From Turritopsis dohrnii (lineage: Eukaryota; Cnidaria; Hydrozoa; Anthoathecata; Oceaniidae): a stretch of 64,000 bases of DNA. This document shows, one piece after another, positions 1 through 63,130 of this stretch. The translations under genes and the position numbers were made by a program. The stretch is from positions 1,178,001-1,242,000 of the forward strand of contig BQMF02000036.1 in NCBI GenBank assembly GCA_027922465.2, in the 5' to 3' direction. Every line of letters begins with the position of its first letter. Position 1 is the stretch's first letter. The notes beneath the pieces were generated by a model. The model was given only the letters and a program-made list of their open reading frames with translations, did no database searches and had not been told where the DNA came from.

Positions 1-2967
1 CGCCAACAACGAGAATCTTCCACTCTACCCGCAGCTGCCGAAAGATAGATTCGACGAAAAAGGGCGCGGGATACTAAACTGTCTGCTGGCTTGGTTAATT
101 AATATGGCATGTTCTCAAAGAAACTGCACACTTTCGTTGTTAACGGCGACTTTGCATTTAACGGTTCCATCATTTTTAGTGTTTTGTTTTTTGTTTTCTC
201 AGAGGACTAGAAAAAACGTTCACGCGAATTTTCCCCGGAAAAAAAAGGTTTTTTTTTTTTTTTTTAAAAGATTATTTTCACCGAATTTTCATCGTTTGTA
301 CAGCAGACTTTAATATTTTCCGTTCCAATAATTTTTCTTTTTCTTTTTTTTTTTCCATTACTGTATTTTCTATTTTCTTTGTTATCGGATATTCTGCAGA
401 ACAAAGTGTTCTATAAAATATTTTTTAAACCAAATTTTTGTCGTTTCCTTTGCGAATTTTTGTCTTCTCCACCGGGGATCCCCTACCGCCTGTCCATTCA
501 CAGGTGCTTCTGCCTTGGTTTCATAACGTTATTTCGAAACACTTGGGGACAGAAAAGACAAAAATCTCTTGTGTTTTAGTCGATTCTGTAGGATTGCGCA
601 TGATGAGAAATTATTGCGCACGATTTGACTAAATGTAATATATGTTCCTATTTGCCTAAAATTCCGTGTGGGATTCATCACCACCAACTTTTTTCTGGAA
701 TTGCCTCGATTTTCTGGGCAGACATTACATTAAATGAAAAGAGCTTTAAGGCCAACCAATCGATCGATTTTTAATGCGACACTCAAAATGACGTGAAAAT
801 GACGAAAATTCTAACCGACGCTCAATTTCTATTTAAGATTTTTGTCTTTATGATCGGAGAAATTTATTCAGCTAATTCTTCACAGCACCGTTGTAGATCT
901 TCCATTTTGATTACGTCATATTGTTTACAACGTTTTATATATACCAAATGCGAATCAAAAACATCCGTTCATGGTAATGTGCAATCAGCCAGCAATAAGA
1001 ACTTCATTCAAGTTGCTGCATTGCTTAATTATAAATCTGTTCCGTATTTTTCAATCAAAACAGTTGTTCATCGCAAAAACACTCCAAATCATGTCTTCTA
1101 TAAAGAAAATTTTACCGACCCTTTTAAACAGGCTAAATTGACCAAGAGGCAACGAACCAGAAAGTCTACCCAAAAATCTCCATCAATCCCGTTTGCAAAA
1201 AGTTTTGAAAGCTAGCAGATTTTCAAAGGCCAAAAGGATGATCTTGGGAGTATGTTTGCCTATGTGCCACCTATTACTGTTGCTTTTTGTAAGATTACAT
1301 TAAAGTGAAAAAAGATAAGTTTGGTACCAATCTATGCAATTTATATTCTGCGTATTTAAAGATTGCGTTAAATTTTCTAGGGTGAATGTTGGCTATATTG
1401 TCAATTGATTAATTTCCTTTGTAGCTATGTTCTTATGTGACTTTTTATATTTGCATGACATTAATTTTTGTGATTATATTCAAACCACAGAAAATGAATG
1501 CACTTTTACGGCTTTATTAGCATCTTATGATTGATAAATTGCTTCCACGATCGCCATTGTGAAAACATAATAAAAGCAAACACTATTTACAAGATTATCT
1601 AACAGAGGTTTCAGGGCAAATCAATAACCTCGTATCAACCTGTACATAGAACAAGCCGTATTTGCTTGGCTTTTGGAGATAGAACCTAATAATTTTAAGG
1701 CGTTATAGCGAATAAAGAGATAAAACAATATCAGACTTCGTTTGAAGGAGATTTTGCCCTTGTTTTTGGAAAAACCTCACGGAAAAAGAACGAAATGATC
1801 CTGAAAAGCTTGAAAACAATCGGGGTATATTTTTTCCAAAAATGGAGATAGAACAAAATAATTGTCACCTAACGATATTACAAATTGTCGTTTTACGCGT
1901 TTTCTTCTTTAACTGTCCAATGTGATCATGATCCATAAAACCTTTTTATGTTTTTTTTCTTTTTTCTTTATGTAAACTTTGGCTATTTTTTGTTTTGAAT
2001 CAAAGTTTTAAACGCAGATTTCTAATGGATTTTTCGCTTGAATTTTTTTTTAAAATAAAAAGTTTTTTTCTTGCTGTTACAGAATTTCTTTAAGAAATCT
2101 TATTTTGATTATGAAATACGTATTTATGGTTTCAGTTCAAACATTTCTTTTTTTTTGTAGCAAATACTTTCTGATATTACTTGTTAAAGCCTTATTTACA
2201 CTTTTTGAAAGGTATGTTAGCATCAGTGTGACTTAGGCCTAAGAGATAACGAAAAGTAACAGAGTTTTGTGCAGATTTTTTTTAACTTTAAATCTATTTG
2301 GTTTGCATATTACAAGTTAATTTTGAAAAGGCTACGCTATGTCACATAGTTACACTACTCATTAAACTATTTGTTGTATTGTAAAACTTTTTAACCATCT
2401 TTTATATGAACAATTATGTTCTTCCAATTGGAAAAGTAATCCTAAAGAAAGTTCTCAATTTTAGTGTAATTGGAAAACCGTGAAGACCAGCATCCGTCAA
2501 GGAGTTTTCAAATCTGATCTTCTATTTCAATCCTTGTTCTCTTCAAAACAATGGAAATGATGTCATAAAACAGTGCTTGTTCTTTAATTGACCGTTGGCC
2601 GATTAAATAGTTTTTCAAACTATCTAGTTTGTCCTGAAGTTCATTTCATGCCATCATGTCAACTCTGTGAATGAAGGGAGTTATTTTATGCTTGTTTCGA
2701 TGCATTCAAAGTTACAGGTGTTATGACTGGAGCCTCAATGCTACTTGTCTAGTGACTTTGATCATAATGCGAGACAGTTCTAGAAACGATTTTGAGCGAT
2801 TGTTGAGCAGCTGCGAGGCTTCCAAAAAACTGACTTTGTCGAAATATTTATGCATATAAGTTAGTATCAGGTCCCAACATTGAACCCTTTTAAAGAAGGG
2901 TAGCTTTCTAGTTATACATATAGAAAAGATCTGTTTCAAAAATTTTTTAGTTCTTTTGTCCATCCGC

Positions 2968-3102
2968 GTTAATAAAATGCTCTTATGAAGGTCATTGAAG
3001 CCAATCGCGTTAATTTGATTCCTTTCTCAAGTTCTCTTTGGGCAAGCGCGTTAATTTCATTCGTGTTAATTTAATGCATTGTTAATTTCTGTCTTCGTTA
3101 AT
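2968..3102 (+). promoter_or_regulatory. Cluster of six GTTAAT motifs upstream of the unit's gene
   Basis: GTTAAT occurs at 2968, 3009, 3050, 3065, 3081 and 3097, all on the plus strand and mostly in the context CGCGTTAATTT. The last copy ends about 105 bp before the ATG at 3207. The cluster recurs in the second unit from about 6930. GTTAAT is the known half-site of HNF1-type homeodomain proteins; use as a promoter or enhancer here is inference from position only. Confidence 0.3.
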
Positions 3103-3206
3103 TTCCTAGAATAAGGTATATTTCTTATGTCTAGAAGATAATAAGAATTCAACTATAATTCAATAATCCTTTGGTTGTGTCAGATATATAATAAAACTCA
3201 TTCAAG

Positions 3207-3873
3207 ATGGTGATGGTAGCTACAGATATAAAGGGCATGTTGTCCATTTCCATTAAGTCGAGACACGACAGCCATACAGATCGATATAATCGAATTTTCA
3301 TGGCCAAGCTGTTCTTGGTTAGCTCGTTGCGGATGGGCATCAGCTGGTTTCAATACGCTTTGATCGTCTTACGGTTTGCTTTGATTTTCGGAATCGTCAT
3401 TCCTATTCTCGGGTTAATTCTGCTGATAGTGCACTACGCTATCGGGATTTTCGGAATCAAGTAAGTTTTCTTTGTTGTTTGTCCAACAAGACGCTAATCA
3501 GTCTCTTATTATCTTTTGAAACAACAAGGCATTACGTAACCTATTTCTCGCTTATACCAGACAGAAATACGGTGTAACCTCTAATAGCGACCACTTCTAG
3601 GGATCAACTCGAAATGGTCGCTGTGGGGAGGTTTTTTATGAGGGACCAAAGTTAAGTGGTCGTTGCGCAGAATTGATCGCTATTGGAGGTTGCACTGTAG
3701 CAAAGCTTTGACCACAAGCTTAAATGAGTTCATCTTGTTACACGAAGCTATAACTTTATTATAATCTAATATTTCTGCATTGTTTTTACAGAACACGCGG
3801 ATCCGGCAGTAAGAAGATCTACAAAGCTCTCAACTTCCGTGAGCTTGAGTATTTGGAATTCCTAAGAAAGTGA
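3207..3873 (+). CDS. Small multi-pass membrane protein, copy A (two exons)
   Basis: Exon 1 is 3207-3460 and exon 2 is 3792-3873, joined by a GT-AG intron (phase 2), giving 111 residues and a TGA stop. The N-terminal ~30 residues are polar and contain the run RHDSHTDRYNR. They are followed by a hydrophobic segment (residues ~30-48) and a long hydrophobic stretch (~50-83) rich in I, L, V and F that could span the membrane once or twice. The tail is basic then acidic (KKIYKAL..ELEYLEFLRK). The 'D..DRxNR' start faintly recalls innexin N-termini, but the cysteine-bearing extracellular loop of innexins is absent, so I do not assign the family. The intron holds a 128 bp MITE. The frame stays open for another ~57 codons after the TGA (separate entry). 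Expression is unproven. Confidence 0.5.
3570..3697. mobile_element. MITE with TA target duplication, in intron of copy A
   Basis: A 128 bp element flanked by TA on both sides. The left end CGGTGTAACCTCTAATAGCG and the reverse complement of the right end (CAGTGCAACCTCCAATAGCG) are near-perfect terminal inverted repeats. TA duplication and 'CAGTG' ends fit a non-autonomous Tc1/mariner-like element. It sits in the same place in both full units, so it predates the tandem duplication. Confidence 0.75.
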
Positions 3874-4044
3874 AACGTCATTCTTTTCGGCGAGGTAATG
3901 GAAAAACTACGTGAGACCATACTTGGACCAAACGCACCCATGGATGACGAATACCCACCTCGTGGCGCCAACAACGAGAATCTTCCACTCTACCTGCAGC
4001 TGCCGAAAGATAGATTCGACGAAAAAGGGCGCGGGATACTAAAC
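3871..4044 (+). other. Open frame continuing past the TGA of copy A
   Basis: From the TGA at 3871-3873 the same reading frame stays open. It includes an ATG at 3898 and a protein-like stretch rich in P, N and E (MDDEYPPRGANNENLPLYLQ) up to about GRGILN at 4044; after that the reading becomes low-complexity and T-rich. The TGA and the downstream stretch are identical in copy B (TGA at 7833). Possible readings are the decayed C-terminus of a longer ancestral protein, stop-codon readthrough, a separate small ORF or chance. The sequence alone does not decide. Confidence 0.3.
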
Positions 4045-7000
4045 TGTCTGCTGGCTTGGTTAATTAATATGGCATGTTCTCAAAGAAACTGCACACTTTC
4101 GTTGTTAACGGCGACTTTGCATTTAACGGTTCCATCATTTTTAGTGTTTTGTTTTTTGTTTTCTCAGAGGACTAGAAAAAACGTTCACGCGAATTTTCCC
4201 CGGAAAAAAAAGGTTTTTTTTTTTTTTTTTAAAAGATTATTTTCCCGAATTTTCATCGTTTGTACAGCAGACTTTAATATTTTCCGTTCCAATAATTTTT
4301 CTTTTTCTTTTTTTTTTCCATACTGTATTTTCTATTTTCTTTGTTATCGGATATTCTGCAGAACAAAGTGTTCTATAAAATATTTTTTAAACCAAATTTT
4401 TGTCGTTTCCTTTGCGAATTTTTGTCTTCTCCACCGGGGATCCCCTACCGCCTGCCATTCACAGGTGCTTCTGCCTTGGTTTCATAACGTTATTTCGAAA
4501 CACTTGGGGACAGAAAAGACAAAAATCTCTTGTGTTTTAGTCGATTCTGTAGGATTGCGCATGATGAGAAATTATTGCGCACGATTTGACTAAATGTAAT
4601 ATATGTTCCTATTTGCCTAAAATTCCGTGTGGGATTCATCACCACCAACTTTTTTCTGGAATTGCCTCGATTTTCTGGGCAGACATTACATTAAATGAAA
4701 AGAGCTTTAAGGCCAACCAATCGATCGATTTTTAATGCGACACTCAAAATGACGTGAAAATGACGAAAATTCTAACCGACGCTCAATTTCTATTTAAGAT
4801 TTTTGTCTTTATGATCGGAGAAATTTATTCGCTAATTCTTCACAGCACCGTTGTAGATCTTCCATTTTGATTACGTCATATTGTTTACAACGTTTTATAT
4901 ATACCAAATGCGAATCAAAAACATCCGTTCATGGTAATGTGCAATCAGCCAGCAATAAGAACTTCATTCAAGTTGCTGCATTGCTTAATTATAAATCTGT
5001 TCCGTATTTTTCAATCAAAACAGTTGTTCATCGCAAAAACACTCCAAATCATGTCTTCTATAAAGAAAATTTTACCGACCCTTTTAAACAGGCTAAATTG
5101 ACCAAGAGGCAACGAACCAGAAAGTCTACCCAAAAATCTCCATCAATCCCGTTTGCAAAAAGTTTTGAAAGCTAGCAGATTGATTTCAAAGGCCAAAAGG
5201 ATGATCTTGGGAGTATGTTTGCCTATGTGCCACCTATTACTGTTGCTTTTTGTAAGATTACATTAAAGTGAAAAAAGATAAGTTTGGTACCAATCTATGC
5301 AATTTATATTCTGCGTATTTAAAGATTGCGTGAAATTTTCTAGGGTGAATGTTGGCTATATTGTCAATTGATTAATTTCCTTTGTAGCTATGTTCTTATG
5401 TGACTTTTTATATTTGCATGACATTAATTTTTGTGATTATATTCAAACCACAGAAAATGAATGCACTTTTACGGCTTTATTAGCATCTTATGATTGATAA
5501 ATTGCTTCCACGATCGCCATTGTGAAAACATAATAAAAGCAAACACTATTTACAAGATTATCTAACAGAGGTTTCAGGGCAAATCAATAACCTCGTATCA
5601 ACCTGTACATAGAACAAGCCGTATTTGCTTGGCTTTTGGAGATAGAACCTAATAATTTTAAGGCGTTATAACGAATAAGGAGATAAAACAATATCAGACT
5701 TCGTTTGAAGGAGATTTTGCGCTTGTTTTTGGAAAAACCTCACGGAAAAAGAACGAAATGATCCTGAAAAGCTTGAAAACAATCGGGGTATATTTTTTCC
5801 AAAAATGGAGATAGAACAAAATAATTGTCACCTAACGATATTACAAATTGTCGTTTTACGCGTTTTCTTCTTTAACTGTCCAATGTGATCATGATCCATA
5901 AAACCTTTTTATGTTTTTTTCTTTTTTCTTTATGTAAACTTTGGCTATTTTTTGTTTTGAATCAAAGTTTTAAACGCAGATTTCTAATGGATTTTTCGCT
6001 TGAATTTTTTTTTTTAAAAAAAAATGTTTTTTCTTGCTGTTACAGAATTTCTTTAAGAAATCTTATTTTGATTATGAAATACGTATTTATGGTTTCAGTT
6101 CAAACATTTCTTTTGTTTGTAGCAAATACTTTCTGATATTACTTGTTAAAGCCTTATTTACACTTTTTGAAAGGTATGTTAGCATCAGTGTGACTTAGGC
6201 CTAAGAGATAACGAAAAGTAACAGAGTTTTGTGCAGATTTTTTTTAACTTTAAATCTATTTGGTTTGCATATTACAAGTTAGTTTTGAAAAGGCTACGCT
6301 ATGTCACATAGTTACACTACTCATTAAACTATTTGTTGTATTGTAAAACTTTTTAACCATCTTTTATATGAACAATTATGTTCTTCCAATTGGAAAAGTA
6401 ATCCTAAAGAAAGTTCTCAATTTTAGTGTAATTGGAAAACCGTGAAGACCAGCATCCGTCAAGGAGTTTTCAAATCTGATCTTCTATTTCAATCCTTGTT
6501 CTCTTCAAAACAATGGAAATGATGTCATAAAACAGTGCTTGTTCTTTAATTGACCGTTGGCCGATTAAATAGTTTTTCAAACTATCTAGTTTGTCCTGAA
6601 GTTCATTTCATGCCATCATGTCAACTCTGTGAATGAAGGAAGTTATTTTATGCTTGTTTCGATGCATTCAAAGTTACAAGTGTTATGACTGGAGCCTCAA
6701 TGCTACTTGTCTAGTGACTTTGATCATAATGCCAGACAGTTCTAGAAACGATTTTGAGCGATTGTTGAGCAGCTGCGAGGCTTCCAAAAAACTGACTTTG
6801 TCGAAATATTTATGCATATAAGTTAGTATCAGGTCCCAACATTGAACCCTTTTAAAGAAGGGTAGCTTTCTAGTTATACATATAGAAAAGATCTGTTTCA
6901 AAAATTTTTTAGTTCTTTTGTCCATCCGCGTTAATAAAATGCTCTTATGAAGGTCATTGAAACCAATCGCGTTAATTTGATTCCTTTCTCAAGTTCTCTT

Positions 7001-7168
7001 TGGGCAAGCGCGTTAATTTCATTCGTGTTAATTTAATGCATTGTTAATTTCCGTCTTCGTTAATTTCCTAGAATAAGGTATATTTCTTATGTCTAGAAGA
7101 TAATAAGAATTCAACTATAATTCAATAATCCTTTGGTTGTGTCGGATATATACTAAAACTCATTCACG

Positions 7169-7835
7169 ATGGTGATGGTAGCTACGGATATAAAGGGCAT
7201 GTTGTCCATTTCCATTAAGTCGAGACACGACAGCCATACAGATCGATATAATCGAATTTTCATGGCCAAGCTGTTCTTGGTTAGCTCGTTGCGGATGGGC
7301 ATCAGCTGGTTTCAATACGCTTTGATCGTCTTACGGTTTGCTTTGATTTTCGGAATCGTCATTCCTATTCTCGGGTTAATTCTGCTGATAGTGCACTACG
7401 CTATCGGGATTTTCGGAATCAAGTAAGTTTTCTTTGTTGTTTGTCCAACAAGACGCTAATCAGTCTCTTATTATCTTTTGAAACAACAAGGCATTACGTA
7501 ACCTATTTCTCGCTTATACCAGACAGAAATACGGTGTAACCTCTAATAGCGACCACTTCTAGGGATCAACTCGAAATGGTCGCTGTGGGGAGGTTTTTTA
7601 TGAGGGACCAAAGTTAAGTGGTCGTTGCGCAGAATTGATCGCTATTGGAGGTTGCACTGTAGCAAAGCTTTGACCACAAGCTTAAATGAGTTCATCTTGT
7701 TACACGAAGCTATAACTTTATTATAATCTAATATTTCTGCATTGTTTTTACAGAACACGTGGATCCGGCAGTAAGAAGATCTACAAAGCTCTCAACTTCC
7801 GTGAGCTTGAGTATTTGGAATTCCTAAGAAAGTGA
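7169..7835 (+). CDS. Small multi-pass membrane protein, copy B (two exons)
   Basis: The tandem duplicate of the gene at 3207. Exon 1 is 7169-7422 and exon 2 is 7754-7835, with the same splice phases and the same TGA stop. The predicted 111-residue protein is the same as copy A in all parts I compared; the nucleotide changes seen are silent, for example CGC to CGT for the Arg just after the splice. Intact splice sites and unchanged protein in both copies fit either selection or very recent duplication. The third unit is cut off before this gene. Confidence 0.5.
7532..7659. mobile_element. MITE with TA target duplication, in intron of copy B
   Basis: The same 128 bp inverted-repeat element as at 3570-3697, at the equivalent position of the second tandem unit and flanked by TA. 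Confidence 0.75.
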
Positions 7836-9367
7836 AACGTCATTCTTTTCGGCGAGGTAATGGAAAAACTACGTGAGACCATACTTGGACCAAACGCACC
7901 CATGGATGACGAATACCCACCTCGTGGCGCCAACAACGAGAATCTTCCACTCTACCTGCAGCTGCCGAAAGATAGATTCGACGAAAAAGGGCGCGGGATA
8001 CTAAACTGTCTGCTGGCTTGGTTAATTAATATGGCATGTTCTCAAAGAAACTGCACACTTTCGTTGTTAACGGCGACTTTGCATTTAACGGTTCCATCAT
8101 TTTTAGTGTTTTGTTTTTTGTTTTCTCAGAGGACTAGAAAAAACGTTCACGCGAATTTTCCCCGGAAAAAAAGGGTTGTTTTTTTTTTTAAAGATTATTT
8201 TCCCGAATTTTCATCGTTTGTACAGCAGACTTTAATATTTTCCGTTCCAATAATTTTTCTTTTTCTTTTTTTTTTTCCATACTGTATTTTCTATTTTCTT
8301 TGTTATCGGATATTCTGCAGAACAAAGTGTTCTATAAAATATTTTTTAAACCAAATTTTTGTCGTTTCCTTTGCGAATTTTTGTCTTCTCCACCGGGGAT
8401 CCCCTACCGCCTGCCATTCACAGGTGCTTCTGCCTTGGTTTCATAACGTTATTTCGAAACACTTGGGGACAGAAAAGACAAAAATCTCTTGTGTTTTAGT
8501 CGATTCTGTAGGATTGCGCATGATGAGAAATTATTGCGCACGATTTGACTAAATGTAATATATGTTCCTATTTGCCTAAAATTCCGTGTGGGATTCATCA
8601 CCACCAACTTTTTTCTGGAATTGCCTCGATTTTCTGGGCAGACATTACATTAAATGAAAAGAGCTTTAAGGCCAACCAATCGATCGATTTTTAATGCGAC
8701 ACTCAAAATGACGTGAAAATGACGAAAATTCTAACCGACGCTCAATTTCTATTTAAGATTTTTGTCTTTATGATCGGAGAAATTTATTCGCTAATTCTTC
8801 ACAGCACCGTTGTAGATCTTCCATTTTGATTACGTCATATTGTTTACAACGTTTTATATATACCAAATGCGAATCAAAAACATCCGTTCATGGTGTAATG
8901 TGCAATCAGCCAGCATTAAGAACTTCATTCAAGTTGCTGCATTGCTTAATTATAAATCTGTTCCGTATTTTTCAATCAAAACAGTTGTTCATCGCAAAAA
9001 CACTCCAAATCATGTCTTCTATAAAGAAAATTTTACCGACCCTTTTAAACAGGCTAAATTGACCAAGAGGCAACGAACCAGAAAGTCTACCCAAAAATCT
9101 CCATCAATCCCGTTTGCAAAAAGTTTTGAAAGCTAGCAGATTGATTTCAAAGGCCAAAAGGATGATCTTGGGAGTATGTTTGCCTATATGCCTCCTATTA
9201 ATGTTGCTTTTTGTAAGATTACATTAAAGTGAAAAAAGATAAGTCTGGTACCAATCTATGCAATTTATATTTTAAAACTGCGTATTTAAAGATTGCGTTA
9301 AATTTTCTATGGCTATATTGTCAATTGATTAATGTCCTTTGTAGCTATGTTCTTATGTGACTTTTTA

Positions 9368-9385: not shown

Positions 9386-11346
9386 TATTAAAATAGGCCG
9401 ATTGTTTTTTTTTTCGTCCGGTAAAGGCTAGTGAATTAGACTTGTTTCCGCGCAATCACTGCACCATTTTGCTTTGCATCAATGCGTTCAACCCTAACCC
9501 TAATCCTTATTCTTCAGATTAATTTCAATTTGCTTTCGATAAGTTTTTTCCAAACTGCATAAAACTAAATGTGTTTATGTTACTATATTATCATTTGTTT
9601 ATTATTTTGCGCAAGTTATATATATTAGTCGTAGAAGTCAGCTAAAACTAACTGGATGTTAAGTGGCGATTACTTCTTGCACATTGTTTGAAGTAGACTT
9701 CAGTTTGAACTGCTGTAATAACTTTCATTGTATTATTATGATATATTTGTTTTTCCTTTTTATGCATCAAAAAAAATTCTCAAAAATAAATATTATATAT
9801 AAGCTAGTATACAGTATTTAATACGGAAAGTACAAAAGTATCAAAACAAAGTTGCATCCCTTATTGCTTTATTGCTTAACTTTTAAATATATATATACAA
9901 TAAAAATTGTATATTTTAGAATAATAAAAAAACAGGTATATATACATAGTGCATGCGTAAGTGAGTAAGTATATAACATTTAGATGTTTGCTTACAATGT
10001 AAAATATGATAGTGAAATGGTTTTATAATTTCAATGGAAAACCAGAGGAAAACGAACAAGATGCCCTTACGGGCAGAAAGATTTCTGCAAAATCAGTTGA
10101 AAAATGAAAATATGAAAAATGAAATTCTATAATAGCATTCTCGAAACTTGAATGATTTTGAATCATTGAATGGTTGAATAATTTCTACAATATATTACAT
10201 TCCTAATTACATGCTTCTCAGGACATTTTGAAGGCATAATTGACACAATGAGAAACTTTATTATAATGTATATATATACTGCCAATAAACTGAACAACAT
10301 GTTTGTTGATAGAAAATAATATAAAAGATACATGGATCCTATCAGATATCTTAATGAGTATGATCATGTATGAGTATGGAGACGGGTCTGTGACGTCATC
10401 AAAATGTTTGAACGAAGATATCTCTCTAACGGTTGACCATAGGAAAAGGATCCCATACATTTTTTTGATCAGTTTTTCGAGCTCTGCAACATGGGCACAC
10501 TTATTATTGGTAAATCCTTAATTTTATTTTTCGTGAACCCAACGCATACTGAAGGTGGACATGGGCGGCGAGCGACGCCGCCTTTACACAAGTGCAGTGG
10601 GTGTTTGTGGACCACCATGGATAGGCGTGCCCACGTTTTTGGTACATAGTCAAATAAGAAAGATGCAGAAAGGGAATTCTTATGACAAATTTGGTTTGAA
10701 AAAATAATTCTGAATTCACAAAGGAAGAGAACCAATGACAAACAATAATCAAACATCTTCGAAAAGGTTATGGTGCAATGTTCCCGTTTACACAATTATT
10801 TGAAACCAAAGGATGAATGGATTCGCCAAATAAATTAATCAATAATGATCAGTGCTCTCAATATGTCTGTTAAAGACGAGAAGTACTCAAGGGTTTTCTG
10901 AAATAGGACAGAATTTAAAATTTTATTAAAAAGTGTGCGTACATACCGTCATATGATGGCTTTCCTGTTCGAATGCTAAACAAAATAAAGTAATAGAAGT
11001 TTTCAGAACGCGGAGAAGACACAAGTCAAACCATAGAAATACGGTCAAACTACCGTTCCTCCATCACTCCCATCAAGTATTAAGTAATATAGCAAAGCAA
11101 TATCATTTCGTAAAGAGGGAATACTCATAAAACAAAATTGGTTCATGTGACTACGCGGACGAACGTAGGATGTTAAAAACATCATTTTTCATACACAGAG
11201 TAAAGATATTATGCTTAATCACTTCCTTCTAGCAAAACATACACTTATACTTCTTTCCCTTTATTTCTCTCGTTGTAGCCTATCCACGATTTACATTTGA
11301 CCTTCTGCTTATCAGACTTTTCCAGGAAGGATTTCCAAACAAAAGT
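9386..11346. other. AT-rich spacer without recognisable genes
   Basis: Very AT-rich, with (TA)n patches near 9885. There is a short telomere-like motif, AACCCTAACCCTAATCC, at about 9488. A locally GC-richer stretch lies at about 10540-10635 and includes the near-palindrome GGGCGGCGAGCGACGCCGCC. Open frames here are short, overlap on both strands and show no family features. Confidence 0.6.
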
Positions 11347-14300
11347 TTACCTTGGTTCGGTGGGCTGCAACAATGTTTCCGGAGTTGGTAATCTTTTCGA
11401 TAATTGTGTCATCAGATTGCTTGAAATGCTTGTTTTAAAAACCCTTATTTTCCCACTAGAATCCCATTTTTCAATCACCTTTCCAATCGTTGACTTTCTG
11501 CTTCCAAACAATGGAAGAGCAGAACAGTCGATAACAATAAATAAGATGTCGGATGTTGCTCGTGCAGCATTTTCTAGTATCGTGTGACGATGAAATTGCT
11601 CCGTGTTTGATAAGGGAATTACAACTTTCCGAAGTTGAAATCCACGACAACCATTACTATCTGTTAAAACGATTTTCCTTTTCCCATCAATTGCTTCGGA
11701 TATTTCTTGTTTCTCTTCCATACTTGGAATTTTGTTTTTACTTTCCAGACAAGGTGCATAAATTAAGACTTCCTTCTCAGCTACCTCTAGGGCATGGCGG
11801 ATCAGATGGAATTCTTCTTCGTCATGGCAGATGATGATATCACCAGCTTTTACATTTTGTATACACGTTGCAATCTTTAATATGACCATTTGTTTACTGT
11901 CAAATTTACCGGAACAGCACTTGCGTAAAATCTTTTCAATTTCCACAGTTGAAGGAACATATGTTAATTCCGGTATTTTCCCTTGATGTGAGTGACCCAC
12001 TTCCGTCGATTGATCAAAACGATATTTTATCAATATACCTTCCGTTGTTCGTTTCTTGGCATACTTACTCATTTGCTTCAGAGCATGTTCCTGACTTCTT
12101 ATTGGCATAGGAGGATTTTTCGTTTCTTTGGAGCATATTTCAATGATTACATTCTCAATGCTTGACTCTACAACACTTTGATAAAAGAATTCATCAATAG
12201 AATTGACCCTGGCGTACCTGAAACGACCTTCCTCATCTGAAAGTTCTCTTGCTGGAGGTTTTGGAATAGAGGTCTCCATTTTTTCAGTATAATAATAACG
12301 TGTTTCTTCATCATTGATAACATCTTTAGCAATCTTGAAATTAAAATCAGATTAGTTTTGTCATAAATATATAGGAAGTAACTTCACACCAAACTCATTT
12401 GAAAATTAAGATTTACCTCCAGAAGTTCTGAAATCTTCATAGAGTTTCGCATGTTCTTTTCTAACCGAACAGGGGACATGTTAAGATATGATTCATAAGT
12501 TTCCAATGCCAATTTCTTCGTTTCGAAAAATCTACCTCTAATTTCATATTATTCATGTTGAAATGCTTGAAATATGAGTGTCACAAAATTGAATCCCATT
12601 CTCGAAAGTGCTGCATTGATTGAGTTAACTTCAAGTTTGTTCATTTTAGATGCATTCAATTCATCGATGCATATGTGACATAGTCTACCAGTGTTCTTTT
12701 GTACCTCCTGAACATAGACTAAAATTTCCGAAACTTCTGGGATTCTCTCTACTCCCATTTCTGCAGCAATTTCTGATACATTGGTAATTCGCAAATTCAC
12801 CACTCTCAACATTCTGCAGTTTCAAATTTCTAAAATGTTTATCGATATGAAAGTCAATCAAACTAAACGGATCAAAACTTATATAAAATATTGTTGTTGG
12901 TTCTTTAGCCATCCGTGCCAAATATTCAGACTGCAAAGTAGCTACAACAGTTTTCCCACAACCAAATGCGGCATTGATGAATTTGTGTTTCCGAGGATCA
13001 ACAATGACTCTAATCTGCTCATCATTGGCTTGTAAGTGTATCAGCTGGTCATGAATATCGTCTGAATGTCTCGCCACTTCAATTGATGTGTTGGCAATGA
13101 AACCACAAACTTGAGCAATAAGTTCTTTCATGATTTCCTTTGAATCGAAGTTTTCAGTTATTTTCAAAACGTGAGGGAGTTCGTCACAAAGCCATTTTTT
13201 CATTATTCCAGTATCACTCAGTTGATCTTTCGTTAAAACTCTTGGCGCACAACCATCGCAAATTAAATTGTGTTTTCCTTCGAAAATTGTTGCTGCGAGT
13301 TTGTGGTTTTCAAGATTCGGCGCAGCAACAAAAGTGGCGAATTTTATTTTGGACCTGTCTATATTTTTTTGCCCAACCACGAATTCCATCACTTTGGTGA
13401 GATCTTCAACATCTTTGGAGCACTTTGCAAACTCATCGGTGATGTCTTTTGAATGAACGCTTCCAGTGACCCTGATATTTAAAATGGCACCCATCTTCTG
13501 ATGGAAAACCAAGATATGGTTGGAAAAATCTCGATGCTCTTCTTTCACCTTTGTTGTTAATAAAAAATTTCTGTGTTCTTGAATGTCTAAGTGTGTTATG
13601 ACAACTCCGCCATCTGGTTCCATTGATTCATGCTGGAGGCTTGCAAGACTCTCTCTAAGGCATTCTGCGACATCTTTTGTTGTATTATTTGATGAGTCCA
13701 TAAAGATATTTGGAAATATGGTCCATTCATAAAAATAGTCTTTATTGTTTTTTAACAAATTACATTCCAAATATTTTTCACACTGGCTGATCCAATCAGA
13801 TGCTGATAATTCCTTCATCTCCCTTTTTGATTGGAAGCAACGAAAATCACTTCGAAAAACTGTTTCACTTTCTTCAGCACCATCTGTTGGTTCTCCTATT
13901 TCTTTGTGAGTGATTAAGGTGTAACCTTCCTTTGGTGTATGATATTCAACCGAAATTTCTACCAAAACAAAATAAAATTATAATACATATTGGATACAAA
14001 AGATTGTTAGCCATAGCAGGGTGCAATATGTCTACAGAAATTATACCGTTCAGTGAAAATTCTCTGCTCACATACTGATGTCTGTTACCATCATCATCTT
14101 TATATTCGATGAAACATTTGTATCTGTTCTTCTTGTCCAAGCCATTCAGTCGGATATAAACAGACCCATTACATTCACATTTTTCAACCTCATCAAGATC
14201 GTAGACGATCATAGGAGAATCCTTCTGTTGTTTTGACTTAGTTTGCGTTGTGATGCTGGTCCAATGAGTATGATTTTCAGGAACTTTCAATATGCAATAA

Positions 14301-17300
14301 TCCTCTGTGGTTGAAATAATCTCTATTACATAGCTTTGTGGTGATACAATTTCGGGTGTTACAGCTAAAATTACCAGAAAGTTTGTATTAGATTTTCTGC
14401 TTTAAAATGGAGAATACAGAACAACATAAGGTTAAATTAGCATTCTATTCTATTCTATTCTATTCTATTTTTATAGAGTTAGCTATAAAAGGAAAAAGGA
14501 ATTGTTCAGTTGCACATTTTAAAACGCAGATATTTTACAACGATAAAAGAAGGCAAGTATTGGTCATTAAATAAAAGGGCAACAACGGAGCTATCTAACG
14601 CAAATTATTGGAAAAAGAAAAGTATCACAAGAACATTGTTTATTAATAACGATTAACAGACAGGGCAAGGAGACCCAAAGAAAACAATAAATATGTTTGA
14701 CCTTTTTCATTTTTAAAAAATGACAAAAAATGCTCGATGTCGACAGTGACCGAGTCCATAGTTCACTGACAGTCTCTAACACTGAAAAGAAATAATCGCC
14801 ACAATGCCACTTAACACTTACACAGGACAAAAAACTATGTACAATGACTTCGATACCTCAAGAGAAAACTTCACAGGTGCAGACGAACTGCGAAGCACGC
14901 TGTTTCGCGCAAAAAAGACTGCTATTTTTGAATGGTCATGCTAAGAACCAATATGTTGAATGTGTTAAAATTCTGTCTCTGGACACAAAAACAATGCAGC
15001 CGCCTGTAAACAGTCTACAAAAAATACAGTGCAATGTAATCATCAAAAAAGAACACACCACGCAAGAAGTAATTCATTACAAAACCTTCTTACGATACTA
15101 TGAACTTGTGAAATGTTGGCAATTAAAGTTTCAATAAACATATTGTAAGGAAATATTTGTTAATTCTTATCTTACTTATGCAAAACATTCCAGGAAATGT
15201 TAAATAAATAAAATGTAAGTAGCAAAACCGCAGGTCAATATTATGTATACACATACCTCGGACATTTTTTAAGGGGCTGATATGACCATCATCTAATAAC
15301 ACAATGGTATCAGTTGTTCGTTGAACACGTTCTGGATATATCAGGTGGCTTTGCAGGTAACAGTTGGACTTCTCATCTTTCCTTAGCATCTTGATGGTAA
15401 GTTGGAAAGCATTAGCCAGTCCATTCAACAACAAGATAAGTTGATAATCTTGGTGATAGCCAGTATCCTTGTATTCTTCAATAATTTCCAGAACGTCTCC
15501 ACCAACTAACACTCCATACCAGCTTAAATTGTCACTTATTTCTTTTGTCATTTCTTCCAAAACTTTCCTCTTGTCAGACGTTTTGTTTTTTAGCTTCAAA
15601 CATTCAACAAAGGAATGGATGAGAGAGTGTTTCTTAGGAACGATGCTGGATACTTCGGCACTGTACTGAGATTGGCTTTCATTTTCAGCAGAATGGCAAT
15701 TATGCCTAGTAATAAAGATGGGAACCAAATATGTCAAAACAATACTGAAAAATGTAACATACGTATTTTAACATATACATTCATTATACCTGAAGATGTT
15801 ATAAAGATTGCTAGGTTTGACTTGACTTGCGTCGACTGAAACAAAAACACTGGAACTGTTAAACATAAAGATGCGATAACAAATAAAGGGAAGGCGAACA
15901 CAGTGTTTTATTACCAATCTCCAATAGGATTTAGAGAACAGACATTCAAGTAAAGCTACATCCCTTTATTCAAAACAAGCAATGACAAAAGGGAAGATGA
16001 ACACAGCGAGTTACTACAAGTTCCCAGAAGGATTAAAAAAACAGAATTTCAAGAAAAAACAAACAATGACAATTGCACACCTTCTTCATCAACAATTTGA
16101 GATACTAGCTGCCGGTGATTCAAAAACATTAGCAGTGATTGCATATGTAACCATGTTGCTTCAGCAGGAAGTGTGGATCGATGCCATTCTTCAAGTATCA
16201 TACGGAGTCTTTTCTGCACATCATCAGGGTTATTGATTGAAATTGTTTGAATTTTATGATATGGAAGCAAGAAATGACCAATCACTCTCCAATCATCACA
16301 TGCTGAATTACAAATCTTCTCAAAGATTTTTATGCGTCTGGGTCTTTCCTGAAAAGTTTTATCCTCCAGTTCATCTAAAACGATGCGTAGGAACCTACTG
16401 AGTGTCTTAAGCATAATTAATACCATGGATGGTTCCAGAACTTGCACGAGATAGGATATGATAGAAAATTAAAGAAAGTTAGAGAAAAGTACTCCTTCTA
16501 CTTTTTAAAATTTACCTGCACATTAGCTAGATAAAATTCAGCAATACCTAAAATTCTCTGTGATATTCATTTCGTTATTTTGGCTCGCATAGAGAACGTA
16601 AATAATATATTATCTCATTTTTATTAACCAATAAAGTTTTGTTAACCAGTGGAATGTCATGGCATTTGTACACAGACAGTGCTCTATAACCATTCAACCT
16701 GCTAACTTTTATAGAGATTGTAAAGCTCAGGGAGAGGAATACATGCAATACAACCGCTGTTTCATACTACATCCCTTTTTGCTGAAATTATTTTTGACAC
16801 CCCATCAAGATTGTCTGAACCTGAAAAAACGTGTGATATCCCTGCTGGTTCTTGAGATATTCTTTAGTCAGTTCACTTAACTTGACCTGACTTGAGGTTG
16901 ATTTAAGCAGCTGCCAGAAGCCATCATCCGCCACCTTTGGACAATCTTTTGAGTGTATTTTCCCCAGTCCAAATGAGAGGTAAAAAAAAAAAAAAAAACT
17001 CTCGAATAGATATTAGAAAGCAGCACCATCTTACAGAGCTCGAAAAAATGTCCTTTCTATGACCAATTTTTCCATGAATATTTTATTGATGTCATAAGAC
17101 CTGACCTCAATTTTGCATCACCCCAACCCAAAAAGCAACAAATGTGGCCCAAAATGGCTTCAAGTTGACATAAATCAAAGATTTCGATAATGATGGCGAA
17201 ACCAATATGTCGATATCATAACACCAGTTTAAATAAACAGTTTATATGTCTGCTATAGCCTATACATACCTTTTTCCTGTGTGTGATTTTGAATGGAAGT

Positions 17301-18029
17301 GCCTATAAAATTTAACATTGGCTTATGGTGGAAATTTTCACGTCCATACCACATCCATTTTGGTGGGTGTTTCTCACGTGACTATTAGCTTTTGTGAATA
17401 CTTTTTCCCCCTATAACTTCTATTTCATAAACCGGAGTTCTTGCATTGTTTCTCAAGAATTGAATTGTTATTAACTTCATCAAAGTCAACATAAAACAAG
17501 TATAAACATTTATAAAGAAAACTTTTATAAAGAAAACTTTTCGGTATTAATTTGTTGATAATATGAGTTATAATGATTTGGTTTGGTTTAATGATTACAA
17601 ACCTTTGATATCTAACGGTGCAGGAGTCTGTTCTTCTGACAGTATGGCATTTTTTTCAATCAACACAAGATGGTCATTCATCTTTTTTATCAACCCTTTT
17701 CTTTCAGAGACAGGTGTATTGGAGAACATCTCCATGACGCAATCGAGCACTGGTCTGTCATCGGACCTTACACTACCAAATATCCTTTCCACTTCCACAT
17801 CATAGCTGAACAAGCGTTCACAAAAACGTTTGCCTCCTTGAAGATCACCGGCAAATCGATTTTCGATAAGAAAGGCAAACATACGAATATCTAAAGTAAA
17901 TAAATTTTCCTTACTAGAAAACTACTGACTTTAGTTTTAGCATGACTTTTATTATTATCAGCATGCTGGAATTTCCAATTTTAGGCAAATAGGCTACTTC
18001 AACTAACCTTCGTCAGCAGTTCCATCCAT
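11347..18029 (-). CDS. Death domain / OTU-like / Ig-FN3-like / SF1-helicase-like multidomain protein (disrupted)
   Basis: Eight exons join in phase: 18029-18008, 17890-17603, 16440-16081, 15835-15790, 15705-15257, 14364-14047, 13958-12417 and 12333-11347, about 1336 residues. Domains: helical N-terminus (~1-100); death domain (~138-222, with 'DDW..IG', 'ML..W' and 'ATW..L' landmarks); OTU-like region (~255-385) with serine near 266 where the Cys should be and His near 379; beta-rich Ig/FN3-like domain (~390-494); a possible restriction-nuclease-fold (NERD-like) segment (~600-720); then an SF1-type NTPase with Walker A AAFGCGKT (~824-831), Walker B-like HICIDE and a second RecA-like half ending in 'ENAARATSDILFIVI'. 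A net +1 frameshift near 12810 and an in-frame TAA at 12549-12551 interrupt the NTPase. The frame is open upstream of the chosen ATG to an acceptor at ~18098, so a 5' exon may be missing. Family assignments rest on motif reading; death domain and P-loop are the surest. An innate-immunity or cell-death role is inference. Confidence 0.75.
14442..14470. repeat. (TTCTA)n microsatellite
   Basis: About six tandem TTCTA units, in an intron of the death-domain gene. Confidence 0.9.
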
Positions 18030-18736
18030 TTCTGATTCAAACCATTTTTCTTTCACACAAACGAAATAATACAAATACGAGCGCAAGTATCTGTTTTGCT
18101 GTAGGACATAGGATGTACCCCCGTCGCCAGCTTTTAGATTTGCATTAAAGAAAACAATTACAAAAAAATTAGAAAGAAATTATCCTATTTCGTAGCCAGG
18201 GATTTGTCAAACAGAGAGGAAATACCGAGTACGAAGTTGCAATCTTTACCGATCGCAAATAAATTACATAAATTTATTCCCGTTTATTAATTTATAACAT
18301 TTCTCGTGTTTTCTCATAAACAGAATGCATACAATGTTGTACGGAGAACAGAACAGAAAATTTTCTGAACATAATGTTTTTATACTCAACTCTCCTTCCT
18401 TCACCATAGGCAGAACATAGTCGAACTGTCTGGAGGAGAGATAAGAAAATATCAGAAAAGGAAAACGTGCGATTACTAAACAATAATTCAGAGAGAAAAG
18501 AAAATTCGTGATAGTGTACTCCTCCATAAAACTTGACTATGTCTATATCCACCTCTGTTCACCTTCATGACACGATGCAAATATTTGCTATTGCAGAATC
18601 TGTAAGGTCACTCTTTTCTTCTCTTGTCTATAAGTTCCGTACTCATAAAGTCAGCTTTGTTTGCTTTGTCTGTGCTTGCTTTTTATCAAAACATACTCGA
18701 AAGATTCGGTTCTTTGTGAGACGCACGTGATTAATA

Positions 18737-19129
18737 AAGCCTGGTTCAGATCTGACGATTACGACGATTAAAAAAAAATCAGTCGTCATAAGCGCCAATC
18801 GCCAGGTCTGAACATTCTCAAGTATGTCAAAATACCAAATTCAAAACACACGATACTTCTTTCCCTTTTTAAGTTTGAACTTCTTTGTAAAATTTGCAGC
18901 ACGTGCCCACACGATCTTAAAACAATAGAATTGACGTAAAATTCAATAGATTTTTACATTACAATAGAGCGACTACGACGATAAAATTTTTTAATATTTT
19001 GTCGTCGTAAACGCCAGGCGTTTATGGCGATTACGACAATTACAAAAGTGTTCACATTAGACGATTACGACGATTACACTAAATTTTAATCGTCGTTATC
19101 GTCGTAATCGTCAGGTCTGAACCAGGCTT
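18737..19129. mobile_element. ~390 bp MITE with AAGCCTGGTTCAGA ends
   Basis: The left end AAGCCTGGTTCAGATCTGAC is mirrored at the right end (AAGCCTGGTTCAGACCTGAC in reverse complement). Internal GATTACGACGATTA-like repeats occur on both arms, and no coding sequence is present. It lies upstream of the death-domain gene on that gene's 5' side. Superfamily not assigned. Confidence 0.85.
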
Positions 19130-19868: not shown

Positions 19869-20031
19869 CTATACTTCAACAACATCAATGTTTTTGGGAG
19901 GTGCAGATTTTGAAAAATGCTTGAAGGAAAGTCGTTTTTCACCAACCAAGGATAACGGTCTACCACGGTTTTTATGTATGTTGAGCAAACATGTTTTAAA
20001 AAAACTCAAAATGTTCATTTTAGTCCGAGCG

Positions 20032-20110
20032 CAACCTCGTACCCAGAGTTTCTTGCCTTTTCGATGTACGGACGATATACGAAAAAGCAAGAAACCCTGG
20101 GTACGAGGTT
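20032..20110. mobile_element. Short hairpin element with AACCTCGTACCCAG ends
   Basis: The left arm AACCTCGTACCCAGAGTTTC and the right arm (reverse complement AACCTCGTACCCAGGGTTTC) form a ~30 bp inverted repeat with a short loop. Related arms appear near 20430, 26820 and at 27528-27587. It looks like a solo MITE or foldback. Confidence 0.7.
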
Positions 20111-21100
20111 AGTCCGGGATTTCTATTCATACCATCTCCATTTTTATTTCATATCAAAATACTTCAAAGCATCTCAAAATCCATTGAACATTCGGGTCAA
20201 CGTGCTCTTAGAAAAACTACAATGGCTGCCATTAATTGTTGATAAATAGCGAATATGGTCTAAGAAAAAATTCCCCAATCAGAATGCGTGAAACAATATG
20301 CAAAGTAAATTTGAACCAGTGTCACATTTGTGTGCTCACACTCAGTAGGATGGAACAGAAATATTCATCAGTATATTTTCATCATTATACAAAGCTTCGT
20401 TGCAGCCATACGTATATCAAAATAGCAAAAAAAACCCTGGGCTCGAGGATGCAACTAAACAATCACAACTTTGCGCTGAACGTTCGTCACTTGTTACACG
20501 CTCTCCTTCGTAAGAATAAGTTTCGAACCTCAGTACTTTCCACATAAAATCAGCCTAGAAAGTTCTTTTATCGTTCTTGAGTTAGTACAGGAGAGTCTGT
20601 CAATTGCTTCTGGCACTTTCCAGGTTCAACGTTGTTATAAAGTATATTTTACCGAATAAAAGTGTTTAAGTTCAATACCTTCAGACCGATTGCACGTTCA
20701 AGTGAATAATGCTGTAGATATCTTCCGATTCAAAAATTACAGGTGTATACAAGCGCCATATATAGATTTAAGTAGACTAAACGTATAATAAACAAACTCG
20801 ACAACTCGCAGAAATCGAATTCTAGAGAGCCTATGAACTCATCTGAATTTAATTTACTTCCAAATTATTGACATTTTCCAGATGAGAGTCTCTGATTTTT
20901 TGGATCGAATCAGAAGAGATGAAATTCATATGAAATTTTTTCTAAACGTCAATAAACAATAGCAAAAACCCGTATGGAATAAAGCTATATATCAAAAGCA
21001 CCCTTAAATCTTCACATTGTCGTCAAAATATAAATATAACGACAGACAACTGGCTTCGTTTAATTCTAACGAGCTTGCATAATGGACGTTGGATGTTCAT

Positions 21101-23291
21101 CTATTTAGCAGTCATGTGTCTCATCAAAATATTGTTCAATTTCTCCAATCTCTTGATATCTTGAGCTTGTTCGGTACGATACTTTAAACACTAGACCGAA
21201 AGAATAAGTAACCGGAAATTATGCAGAAACTGAACTGATATTTCAGGTATTGAAATCTGTTGAGCTGCGGGAAGTTTCAAACATCTTCATAATACAAACT
21301 ACTACTCTCCCTACTCATTCACCACACATGTGCCCTGGGTGTGTTCCACTTGAAATATCAAATTTTAAATTAAAAGAACAGTTGATTTTTTTTCATACCG
21401 GAATGGATATTGGCAGAATTAAAGAGAGTTGAGATCAGTTTACTAGATAACTCAATGGTTTGGCTGAAGAGTTTTCAACCTGGTAGCATATGCAACAACA
21501 GCTTTTCTGTCAAGGAATCATCTCCTTTTAGAGCTCTTAATTTCCTGGCTTAATTACCGTTCAGTGCTTGGACCACCACCAATTACATTTCAAACATGAC
21601 ATAACTCATACGACCAAGAAAGTTCTAATGTATAACTTCAATTGATTTCGCCAAAAACCATCACATTATAATGGTACAGTCTACTCTCGATAAGTGGAAC
21701 CCCAGATAAGTGGAACTTATTTCTCCGGTCCCTGCATTAACAAACCTCTCTTATGGAACCATTAAGTAGTATTGTAGTATCAATTGAGAAAACTTCTACA
21801 GTAAAACAGCGCAATATTAACAGAGTTCAACTAAGTTGATGTTGGACTTTAATAATAAAATGGAACAAATGTATAATAAAATGATCTATATATACTTTTG
21901 ACTTACCACTTTGTCATCTGTCATTTTCAACACTAGCTTCCCATCACAGTTTCGATATTTTGTGACAAATCTCGTCTAAATTAAGAAAAACTACAGATTA
22001 TAGGGATGAGGAAATTCAAATAAAGTCATTTTCTTTCTGACATCATATGCTGCTCTAATTGTTGTTCTCCATCGATTTCCTTGACTGCAATCAATTACAA
22101 TTTTCATAAATAGTGCCCGAGGAGCTGGCAAATACAATCAATCAAAATATATATCCATAATAAAATTCAAAATAATTTATGAAGCGGAAAAGAGACATGG
22201 ATATGCAATTAGGAATCACTTGTGCAAGTCACAATGGCTTACAGAAAGCCTTTTGTGTAAATAAAGGAAGAAATTCTTTTGGTTTGCAATATCTTTCCAT
22301 TCTGTTTCATTTTTTTCCCAGTTTAAGAAACCTTTTTTCGTTGTGGTCAAAGATGGTATCTGGTAAACGTTTTCTCCCAAGAGGTTATAGAATGGCAAAC
22401 CTGTGGAACAATTTAGAGAAAAGAATTATAGCAGACAGTTTCCACTTGTGGCTGGTTGCTTTCGAACTAACTTCTGTATCATTAATCTGCAACTGAATAT
22501 GAGAACCGGCAAATTAAGTTAATTTAATACACAAACGGGTGCTACCTGTAATGTACGTTTCAAAATAATACATTACCAAATCGAAAAGTACGATATTTTA
22601 AAGTGGCCTTTCAAATTTGTGCTGAAGGCACCGAAATAATAAATGAAATAAAAATGCTTTTCTGACTGAAACTTTTTTGTTTCTAGAAAAATATGTCTGC
22701 TAGTACACATGTTATACTTGTTTATGAAATATGAAAACTTTCCTGGGGACAAATGGGTCACTGCTTCATGTTCCAAAGAAAAATTTTATTTCTTATCATT
22801 TGCTTGATGTGATTTTATAGTCAATTCTATATGGTCTAAGTACAAAACTACAATTGTCTGGTAGTAATAGATAATGAATGTTTTGTGTTCATACTTTGTA
22901 AATCGTTGACACATTATAAATATATGTGTTCTTTCCTCATCATTAATTTCTTAAAATTTCGACATGCATAATAATAAACCAGACCTATCTGGTTAACAAA
23001 ATATACATAATAACTTCATTCTCACAGACATATAAAATCATACCATAGGAAGACAATGTGTGGTTTGTATTTTTCAGATATGCAAAATTGTAACATTGAC
23101 AGTAGTTACACGATGAGTGACCTTTTAGCTTGCTTTTCTCCTTCCCCCTTACAGCTCTCTAAAACCTCACCCCTTGCGTAAACACTCCCAAAATATAAGG
23201 AAACCTTTGTTGACCGTACCTTGGATGGATTACTCAGAAATAGTTGCTCTGCTGCTTTAGCAAACTCTTCCCAGTTATCGATGTATGTCAT
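21101..23291 (-). CDS. SRP9: Signal recognition particle 9 kDa protein (SRP9)
   Basis: SRP9 pairs with SRP14 to form the Alu-domain heterodimer of the signal recognition particle, which binds the SRP RNA 5' domain and slows translation while the ribosome docks at the ER. Three exons, 23291-23220, 21975-21907 and 21190-21101, all join in phase 0 and give 76 residues (human is 86). Exon 1 gives the start with 'WEEFAKAAEQLFLSNP', exon 2 'RFVTKYRNCDGKLVLKMTDDKV', and exon 3 'YRTEQAQDIKRLEKLNNILM' and a short tail. All match the family order (WEEF..AAE.L, YRH.DG.L.LKVTDD, YKT.QAQDVKK.EK). The start is the first ATG before the WEEF motif. The gene is divergent from TAF6, 325 bp away. Confidence 0.93.
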
Positions 23292-23616
23292 TCTCCTATG
23301 ATCCTACGCTGACAAAAGCCAGGAAGAAAACGTTGCATTAATTCCATTACACTGATTGATCGCGTGGCCCCGAGATGTGATCATAAAAGTAAGCTGTTTT
23401 ACAGACCCGAATAAATCTGATCACAACTGCAATATATTTTCAAAAGAAAATTATGTTTTAAATTGTTTACATTTTGAAAGTCAATAAATGTTACCTTTTG
23501 AAATCTGCATAGATTTATTTATCGAAATTGTTTCAAAAGGATGTGATCTGTACTATGCTTCGTGCAGTTTTTTCTAAAAGTAATACCTTGACACTTAATT
23601 CTTCCAAAATCCCATC
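23292..23616. promoter_or_regulatory. Shared promoter region between SRP9 and TAF6
   Basis: Only 325 bp separate the two divergent start codons, so core promoters and 5' UTRs of both housekeeping genes must lie here or overlap. No TATA box stands out. The arrangement suggests a bidirectional promoter (inference). Confidence 0.5.
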
Positions 23617-63017: not shown

Positions 63018-63130
63018 GTTCATCTAAAACGACTCGACGACTTGAATGTCGACTTATTGTGAACCGCGTTAACTTCTAAAACGATTCGACGACTTGACAA
63101 ACGAGATTTTGGCGCCGAATTAACTTCATA
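63016..63130 (-). repeat. CGTTTTAGA-rich repeat, right arm of an inverted pair
   Basis: The reverse complement matches 58652-58815: GTTTATGAAGTTAATTCGGC, GCCAAAATCTCGTTTGTCAA, GTTAACGCGGTTCACAATAA. Confidence 0.85.

Follow-up and report, generated by a model that had tools for sequence, protein, structure and literature searches.

Organization and coding capacity of the gene

Here, we report a gene on the minus strand of a 64,000-nucleotide stretch of the Turritopsis dohrnii genome (assembly GCA_027922465.2, contig BQMF02000036.1, positions 1,178,001 to 1,242,000 of the forward strand; the whole stretch is hereafter called the window), in which eight exons running from position 18029 down to 11347 would join a probable death domain to a P-loop nucleoside triphosphatase (NTPase). 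It is a real and unusual animal gene, in which the death domain is marginal, the call of a dead OTU-like domain weak, and the type of the NTPase unsettled; as sequenced, the gene is disrupted. From the N terminus, the order of modules would be a helical region, the death domain, the dead OTU-like domain, a beta-sandwich, and then the P-loop NTPase with motifs like those of superfamily 1 (SF1) helicases.

GT..AG borders are present at all seven introns, and the reading phases agree at every join up to that of exon 6 with exon 7 (end phases 1, 1, 1, 2, 1, 1). The introns measure, in gene order, 117, 1162, 245, 84, 892, 88, and 83 nt, the exons add up to 4012 nt, and the last exon closes with a TAA at 11347. 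An earlier reading of the DNA from its letters alone (the sequence-only reading) had proposed an eight-exon GT-AG chain in matching phase; its borders, coordinates, and phases hold as far as exon 7, but the frame change and the TAA at 12551 within that exon had gone unmentioned. The frame 5' of the ATG at 18029 is open up to about 18179 (18003-18179, minus strand) with the protein-like text FNANLKAGDGGTSYVLQQNRYLRSYLYYFVCVKEKWFESE; the N terminus and the 5' end of the gene are therefore not fixed, and perhaps there is a longer first exon at 18003-18179. We rejected a candidate cassette exon (16945-16821), which ends in phase 0 and so mismatches exon 3, and which has a codon score of +1.5 against +2.8 on the opposite strand.

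The open frames are concentrated on the proposed exons. Five frames in 11.0-18.3 kb run for at least 139 codons from stop to stop, every one of them on exons of the gene; 300 simulated Markov-1 sequences gave a mean of 0.12 such frames and a maximum of 2. Codon usage was tested with four neighbouring long frames as the training set, and the gene frame was ranked among the six frames in each of 10 pieces. It came out best in four of them, namely exon 5 (+20.5), exon 6 (+9.4), exon 8 (+39.9), and the opening 1148 nt of exon 7 (+31.3). It was not the best in the remaining six: exon 2 (+2.5, another frame reaching +4.8), exon 3, exon 4 (+1.5), the remainder of exon 7 (+0.2, best frame +1.2), the open stretch upstream of exon 1 (+3.4), and the rejected cassette. 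The coordinates are collected in Table 1.

Table 1. Exons and landmarks of the gene, in window positions
Feature	Position	Strand	Content
Exon 1	18008..18029	-	MDGTADE; placed by splice and phase
Exon 2	17603..17890	-	Phase 1-1; N-terminal part, helical as judged by eye
Exon 3	16081..16440	-	Phase 1-1; probable death domain, residues ~138-222
Exon 4	15790..15835	-	Short linker exon
Exon 5	15257..15705	-	OTU-like region
Exon 6	14047..14364	-	Phase 1-1; rich in beta strands, Ig/FN3-like only by eye
Exon 7, whole	12417..13958	-	Two reading frames
Exon 7, first part	12808..13958	-	Alpha/beta-looking region, then Walker A AAFGCGKT
Frame-change interval in exon 7	12685..12821	-	By text, near 12806-12821
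Exon 7, second part, in the frame of exon 8	12417..12807	-	Walker B CHICIDEL (12680-12657), motif IV-like LEKNMRNS
TAA in the exon 8 frame of exon 7	12549..12551	-	Second lesion
Exon 8	11347..12333	-	C-terminal NTPase half, motif V-like and VI-like stretches; TAA end
AATAAA poly(A) signal	11260..11265	-	81 nt past the stop codon

A frame change and a stop codon in exon 7

Exon 7 carries its two Walker motifs in different frames. The frame in which the exon is entered, with Walker A, is closed by a stop at 12687, and the frame leading into exon 8, with Walker B, has stops at 12824 and 12551. Given the stop at 12824 in the exon 8 frame and that at 12687 in the entry frame, the change of frame must lie within 12821-12685. 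As sequenced, the entry-frame product has 918 residues and ends 87 residues past Walker A. Additional introns could in principle repair the exon: 19 GT-AG pairs are able to shift the frame and 35 are able to excise the TAA, eight of the latter (donors 12629 and 12584) leaving the Walker B codons in place. Combinations of introns that rescue the exon do exist and require weak donors, for instance GTCTGA, GTTTTG, or GTGACA; single-intron solutions number 30, and all of the 20 listed lose Walker B. Most simply read, the gene is disrupted, or else the sequence contains two errors.

The former reading makes the locus a relic, i.e., a decayed paralogue that would have no protein-level function here, any function being left to intact relatives in other parts of the genome, and it is compatible with the explanation we prefer below, which is about genes of the intact kind. 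In favor of decay, a single exon has both the frame change and the TAA of 12551, and the codon scores are indecisive in exons 2 and 3 and in the second part of exon 7. Open frames and GT..AG borders persist, however, in seven of the eight exons, and the codon signal is clear in exons 5, 6, and 8 and in the first part of exon 7, so that any decay would be recent. An error in the sequence would also account for the two lesions, and we regard the relic as somewhat unlikely.

If the two lesions are both mistakes of the consensus, from sequencing or from assembly, the animal itself has an intact gene. Two lesions are few for 4012 exon nt, and indels do separate the copies of a tandem repeat elsewhere in the window, three of the eight next to T runs, which fits errors or real divergence. 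No long homopolymer lies near 12806-12821, however, the second lesion is a whole stop triplet, and both fall in one exon; errors of this kind seem to us an unlikely cause.

The NTPase and the region ahead of it

In the read-through chain, Walker A (AAFGCGKT) occupies residues 824-831 and Walker B (CHICIDEL) residues 922-929, the two being in two frames of the DNA. Further on are LEKNMRNS (residue 994), VLTDSNGCRGFQ (residue 1231, including TDSNGCRGFQ), and ENAARATSD (residue 1263), which we take, from the consensus, to be like SF1 motifs IV, V, and VI. When residues 795-1337 were shuffled 20000 times, Walker A alone appeared in 310 shuffles, Walker A with Walker B in 10, and the pattern Walker A, acidic Walker B, and L..[NATV].R, which was devised post hoc, in none.

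The profile searches do not agree on one type. On one NTPase fragment, Pfam ranked the STAND-type model NPHP3_N first (E 0.0078), followed by Rho_N (0.015) and ResIII (0.046), all below the cut-off. The NPHP3_N match covers the stretch from Walker A to beyond Walker B. On two other cuts ResIII was ahead of the STAND-type model (0.02 versus 0.072, and 0.1 versus 0.26), again all below the cut-off, and no UvrD-type, AAA_11/12, or DUF2075 model was among the Pfam matches listed. The SF1-type P-loop NTPase of the sequence-only reading keeps its Walker A and Walker B, and its SF1 label would follow from motifs; the type is unsettled, with STAND as a live rival.

This rival would make the protein a STAND/NACHT-type switch, a death-domain NLR-like or SAMD9-like protein in which the C-terminal SF1-like motifs are coincidental. 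It has the leading Pfam model on one fragment in its favor, but that match reaches 16.9 bits against a curated cut-off of 24.8, ResIII does better on the two other cuts, and LEKNMRNS, TDSNGCRGFQ, and ARATSD follow one another in an order resembling that of SF1 motifs IV, V, and VI. A death domain with a STAND module is a known design (PMC5445408); we nevertheless think the switch improbable for this gene.

For the alpha/beta-looking stretch ahead of the NTPase, a possible NERD-like nuclease fold had been suggested. PDB, Pfam, and NCBIfam gave no meaningful match for it, to NERD or otherwise, and the NERD label, a reading by eye, is unsupported. Where the E-x-K of a PD-(D/E)xK nuclease would be expected, the sole core strand plausible by eye (LNIRVTG) reads N-I-R.

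The probable death domain, the OTU-like region, and the beta-rich exon

Exon 3 probably encodes a death domain. In a sequence search against PDB (E<=10), FADD accounted for 10 of the 15 matches listed, with a best E of 0.032 over query residues 39-118, and the alignment covers the whole death domain. Please note that these ten are the same protein repeatedly, i.e., one independent match, and that the family had been named beforehand by the sequence-only reading. No match of exon 3 to the Pfam Death model was listed at E<=10.

The OTU-like assignment of exon 5 is weak. OTUD1 (4bop) was the second of two PDB matches (E 0.99), collinear and with the alignment reaching the GH pair, and Pfam listed no OTU match for the exon. 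An active OTU protease has Asp-Gly-x-Cys followed at a distance by His. At the site expected for Asp-Gly-x-Cys, placed by eye, exon 5 has KKHS (Ser266), and the region keeps a histidine, His380, within DDGHI. With KKHS replacing Asp-Gly-x-Cys, the OTU-like domain is therefore predicted to be catalytically dead. Exon 2 had no meaningful family match and exon 6 had chance-level matches only.

A death domain, an OTU-like domain, a beta-rich exon, and a P-loop NTPase, all in phase, is nonetheless the best reading of exons 3-7. The order of death domain, OTU-like domain, and beta-sandwich claimed earlier stands in that sense, at a lower strength for each part: FADD at E 0.032 makes the death domain marginal, OTUD1 at E 0.99 makes the OTU call weak, and the beta-sandwich is seen by eye. 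That exons 1-3 (the helical region and the death domain) and exons 4-8 are two adjacent genes is very unlikely, since the phase-1 joins fit on both sides of exon 3, even if that exon lacks a codon signal and is separated from exon 2 by an intron of 1162 nt.

Search for relatives

Protein collections were searched with three queries, each scored on the candidates that share words with it. The whole chain, scored on residues 200-1337, had 5218 candidates, none at E<=0.001; residues 795-1020 had 308 and the 383-residue frame of exon 7 had 1506, none at E<=1 in either case. Pattern scans of viral contigs with the exon 7, exon 8, and exon 5 proteins picked up 4, 1, and 25 stretches, respectively, and those of prokaryote genome contigs with the exon 7 and exon 8 proteins 4 and 7, with no relative among any of them. 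The nucleotide scans were of viral and prokaryotic DNA and the animal share of the protein collection is uncertain, which makes this lack of relatives weak evidence. Within the window, a tblastn search for a second copy of the gene returned, beyond the gene itself, two chance matches (E 6.7).

Surroundings of the gene in the window

Eight other long frames of the window were compared with Pfam, and four were matched: TAF6, FAM60A, an FG nucleoporin, and a reverse transcriptase. The first three are ordinary eukaryotic genes. The reverse transcriptase belongs to a non-LTR-type (LTR, long terminal repeat) retrotransposon on the minus strand at 60534-63019, with a 620-codon reverse transcriptase frame (RVT_1, E 2.7e-37) and a 119-codon frame upstream. 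Neither Rfam, at its gathering thresholds, nor ARAGORN had a match in the window.

Positions 1-9300 are a head-to-tail repeat with a unit of about 3.96 kb, in two full copies and a partial third; across 3969 columns, 23 substitutions and 8 indels separate copy 1 from copy 2. The repeat contains frames of 239 and 238 codons (3874-4593 and 7836-8552), the second without a Pfam match. At 18739-19129, a short element with inverted ends (gcctggttcag...ctgaaccaggc) flanking repeated ACGACGATT-like units looks like a miniature inverted-repeat transposable element. A frame at 20024-20242 with LVPRVSCLFD...NPGYEV presumably resembles repeats that are frequent in predicted anthozoan proteins, which hints at cnidarian DNA, and a minus-strand frame at 23106-23303 contains MTYIDNWEEFAKAAEQLF, which we assume to resemble the start of SRP9.

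Proposed origin and mode of action

Exon 2, exon 3, exons 4 and 5 together, and exon 6 are symmetric phase-1 units, with one proposed domain each. Symmetric-phase exons are the pattern expected from exon shuffling, and the gene was probably built in this way.

Our best explanation, which we put forward tentatively, is that the gene encodes a fast-evolving, exon-shuffled death-domain NTPase sensor that would work as the death-domain RIG-I-like receptors (RLRs) or the SAMD9 relatives do, without necessarily being a member of either. For its action we infer the following. In intact relatives, the NTPase half and the alpha/beta region preceding it would bind foreign or misplaced nucleic acid, and NTP binding would drive a conformational change or oligomerisation. 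The death domains thereby exposed may recruit a FADD-type adaptor and start a caspase or NF-kB cascade. Binding or restraint, and not catalysis, would be the role of the dead OTU-like domain and the beta-sandwich.

In its favor are the exon chain with its phases and poly(A) signal, the excess of long frames over chance, the codon signal of exons 5, 6, and 8 and of the first part of exon 7, the FADD and OTUD1 matches to exons that already bore those labels, the Walker A, Walker B, and motif IV-like series, the symmetric phase-1 units, the published precedents discussed below, and the ordinary eukaryotic genes nearby. A number of observations weigh against this explanation. At the death domain, exon 3 fails the codon test (-2.1, best frame +0.7), and its place in the chain therefore comes from an open frame and the splice phases rather than from codon usage; a designed TIM barrel is second in its PDB search at E 0.034, close to FADD, and its single-sequence AlphaFold2 model, of helices only, is a failed model with a mean predicted local distance difference test (pLDDT) score of 44.7. 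The model of exon 5 made in the same way failed as well (mean pLDDT 36.1), and an antibody chain outranks OTUD1 on this exon (E 0.41). For the NTPase and the region ahead of it the PDB matches are meaningless, and the evidence of codon usage around Walker B is neutral or mixed. A self-trained codon scan was likewise mixed, the exon 8 frame winning at 12818-12639 and the stop-rich entry frame scoring higher at 12698-12519. Nothing rose above the cut-off in Pfam for the pieces scanned and the whole read-through chain, in NCBIfam for three pieces scanned, or in PADLOC for the whole chain, and no homologue emerged from the collections searched. Nucleic acid is a putative ligand of the NTPase half, and given the frame change and the stop, this copy may be nonfunctional.

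A bolder proposal goes beyond this sensor to a hitherto undescribed class of immune sensors in animals, composed of a death domain, a dead OTU domain that would read ubiquitin or another ligand, a beta-sandwich, an inactivated nuclease-like domain, and an SF1-type NTPase. Such a class would be the SF1 counterpart of the death-domain RLRs, made by phase-1 shuffling, and the locus would be one member, broken not long ago, of an expanded family. We consider it doubtful. If intact relatives do exist, an SF1-type NTPase would join the motors that are wired directly to death-domain signalling, a dead OTU domain would be a part of an animal immune sensor, and exons 2, 3, 4+5, and 6 would make a clean example of exon shuffling domain by domain. 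If the copy is only a relic, the locus would be a fossil of exon shuffling.

Comparison with known systems

Nuclease-helicases that pair NERD with a helicase occur in prokaryotic defence. The gene is like them, by eye, in having an alpha/beta region ahead of a P-loop NTPase, and unlike them in lacking a NERD or PADLOC match and in having N-I-R in place of E-x-K.

RIG-I-type helicases are SF2 enzymes. The RLRs have such a helicase and a RIG-I C-terminal domain, whereas the gene would have an SF1- or STAND-like NTPase, an OTU-like domain, and a beta-rich exon; at E<=1, Pfam matched neither the RIG-I-type helicase nor the RIG-I C-terminal domain anywhere in the whole chain. The likeness is in the arrangement: invertebrate RLRs carry a death domain before the helicase (type A1), i.e., N-terminal to a helicase-type nucleic-acid sensor as the gene would, and their domain grafting is tied to exon-intron changes (PMC8998645).

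The SAMD9 family shares with the proposed protein a homotypic death-fold adaptor, then an enzyme-like module and then a P-loop NTPase. According to PMC5445408, relatives of SAMD9 have death-superfamily N termini ahead of a STAND-like NTPase, and the SAMD9 core consists of AlbA, Sir2-like, STAND-like NTPase, TPRs, and an OB fold. None of these (AlbA, Sir2-like, STAND-like NTPase, TPR, OB) had a Pfam match at E<=1 in the whole chain of the gene. Cnidarians and brachiopods have TRADD-N fusions of the DEDD2 clade, some of them to Mov10, DDX60, or RLR-like receptors, as described in PMC8195603; these resemble the gene in placing a death-like domain in chimeric proteins of marine invertebrates, and the Pfam scan of the whole chain listed no TRADD-N match. 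OTU is absent from the main texts of PMC8195603 and PMC5445408.

The sequence-only reading had not recognised the architecture as that of any described family. The specific order of domains was indeed not found in the literature searched by full text, in which few subscription journals are represented and matches were seen as titles and abstract openings (the best 20 of 579 for one query). Sensors that join a death domain to a helicase or an NTPase are, however, already in print for invertebrates (PMC8998645 and PMC5445408), and the general idea of a death domain fused to a helicase-type or NTPase sensor is less new than had been claimed.

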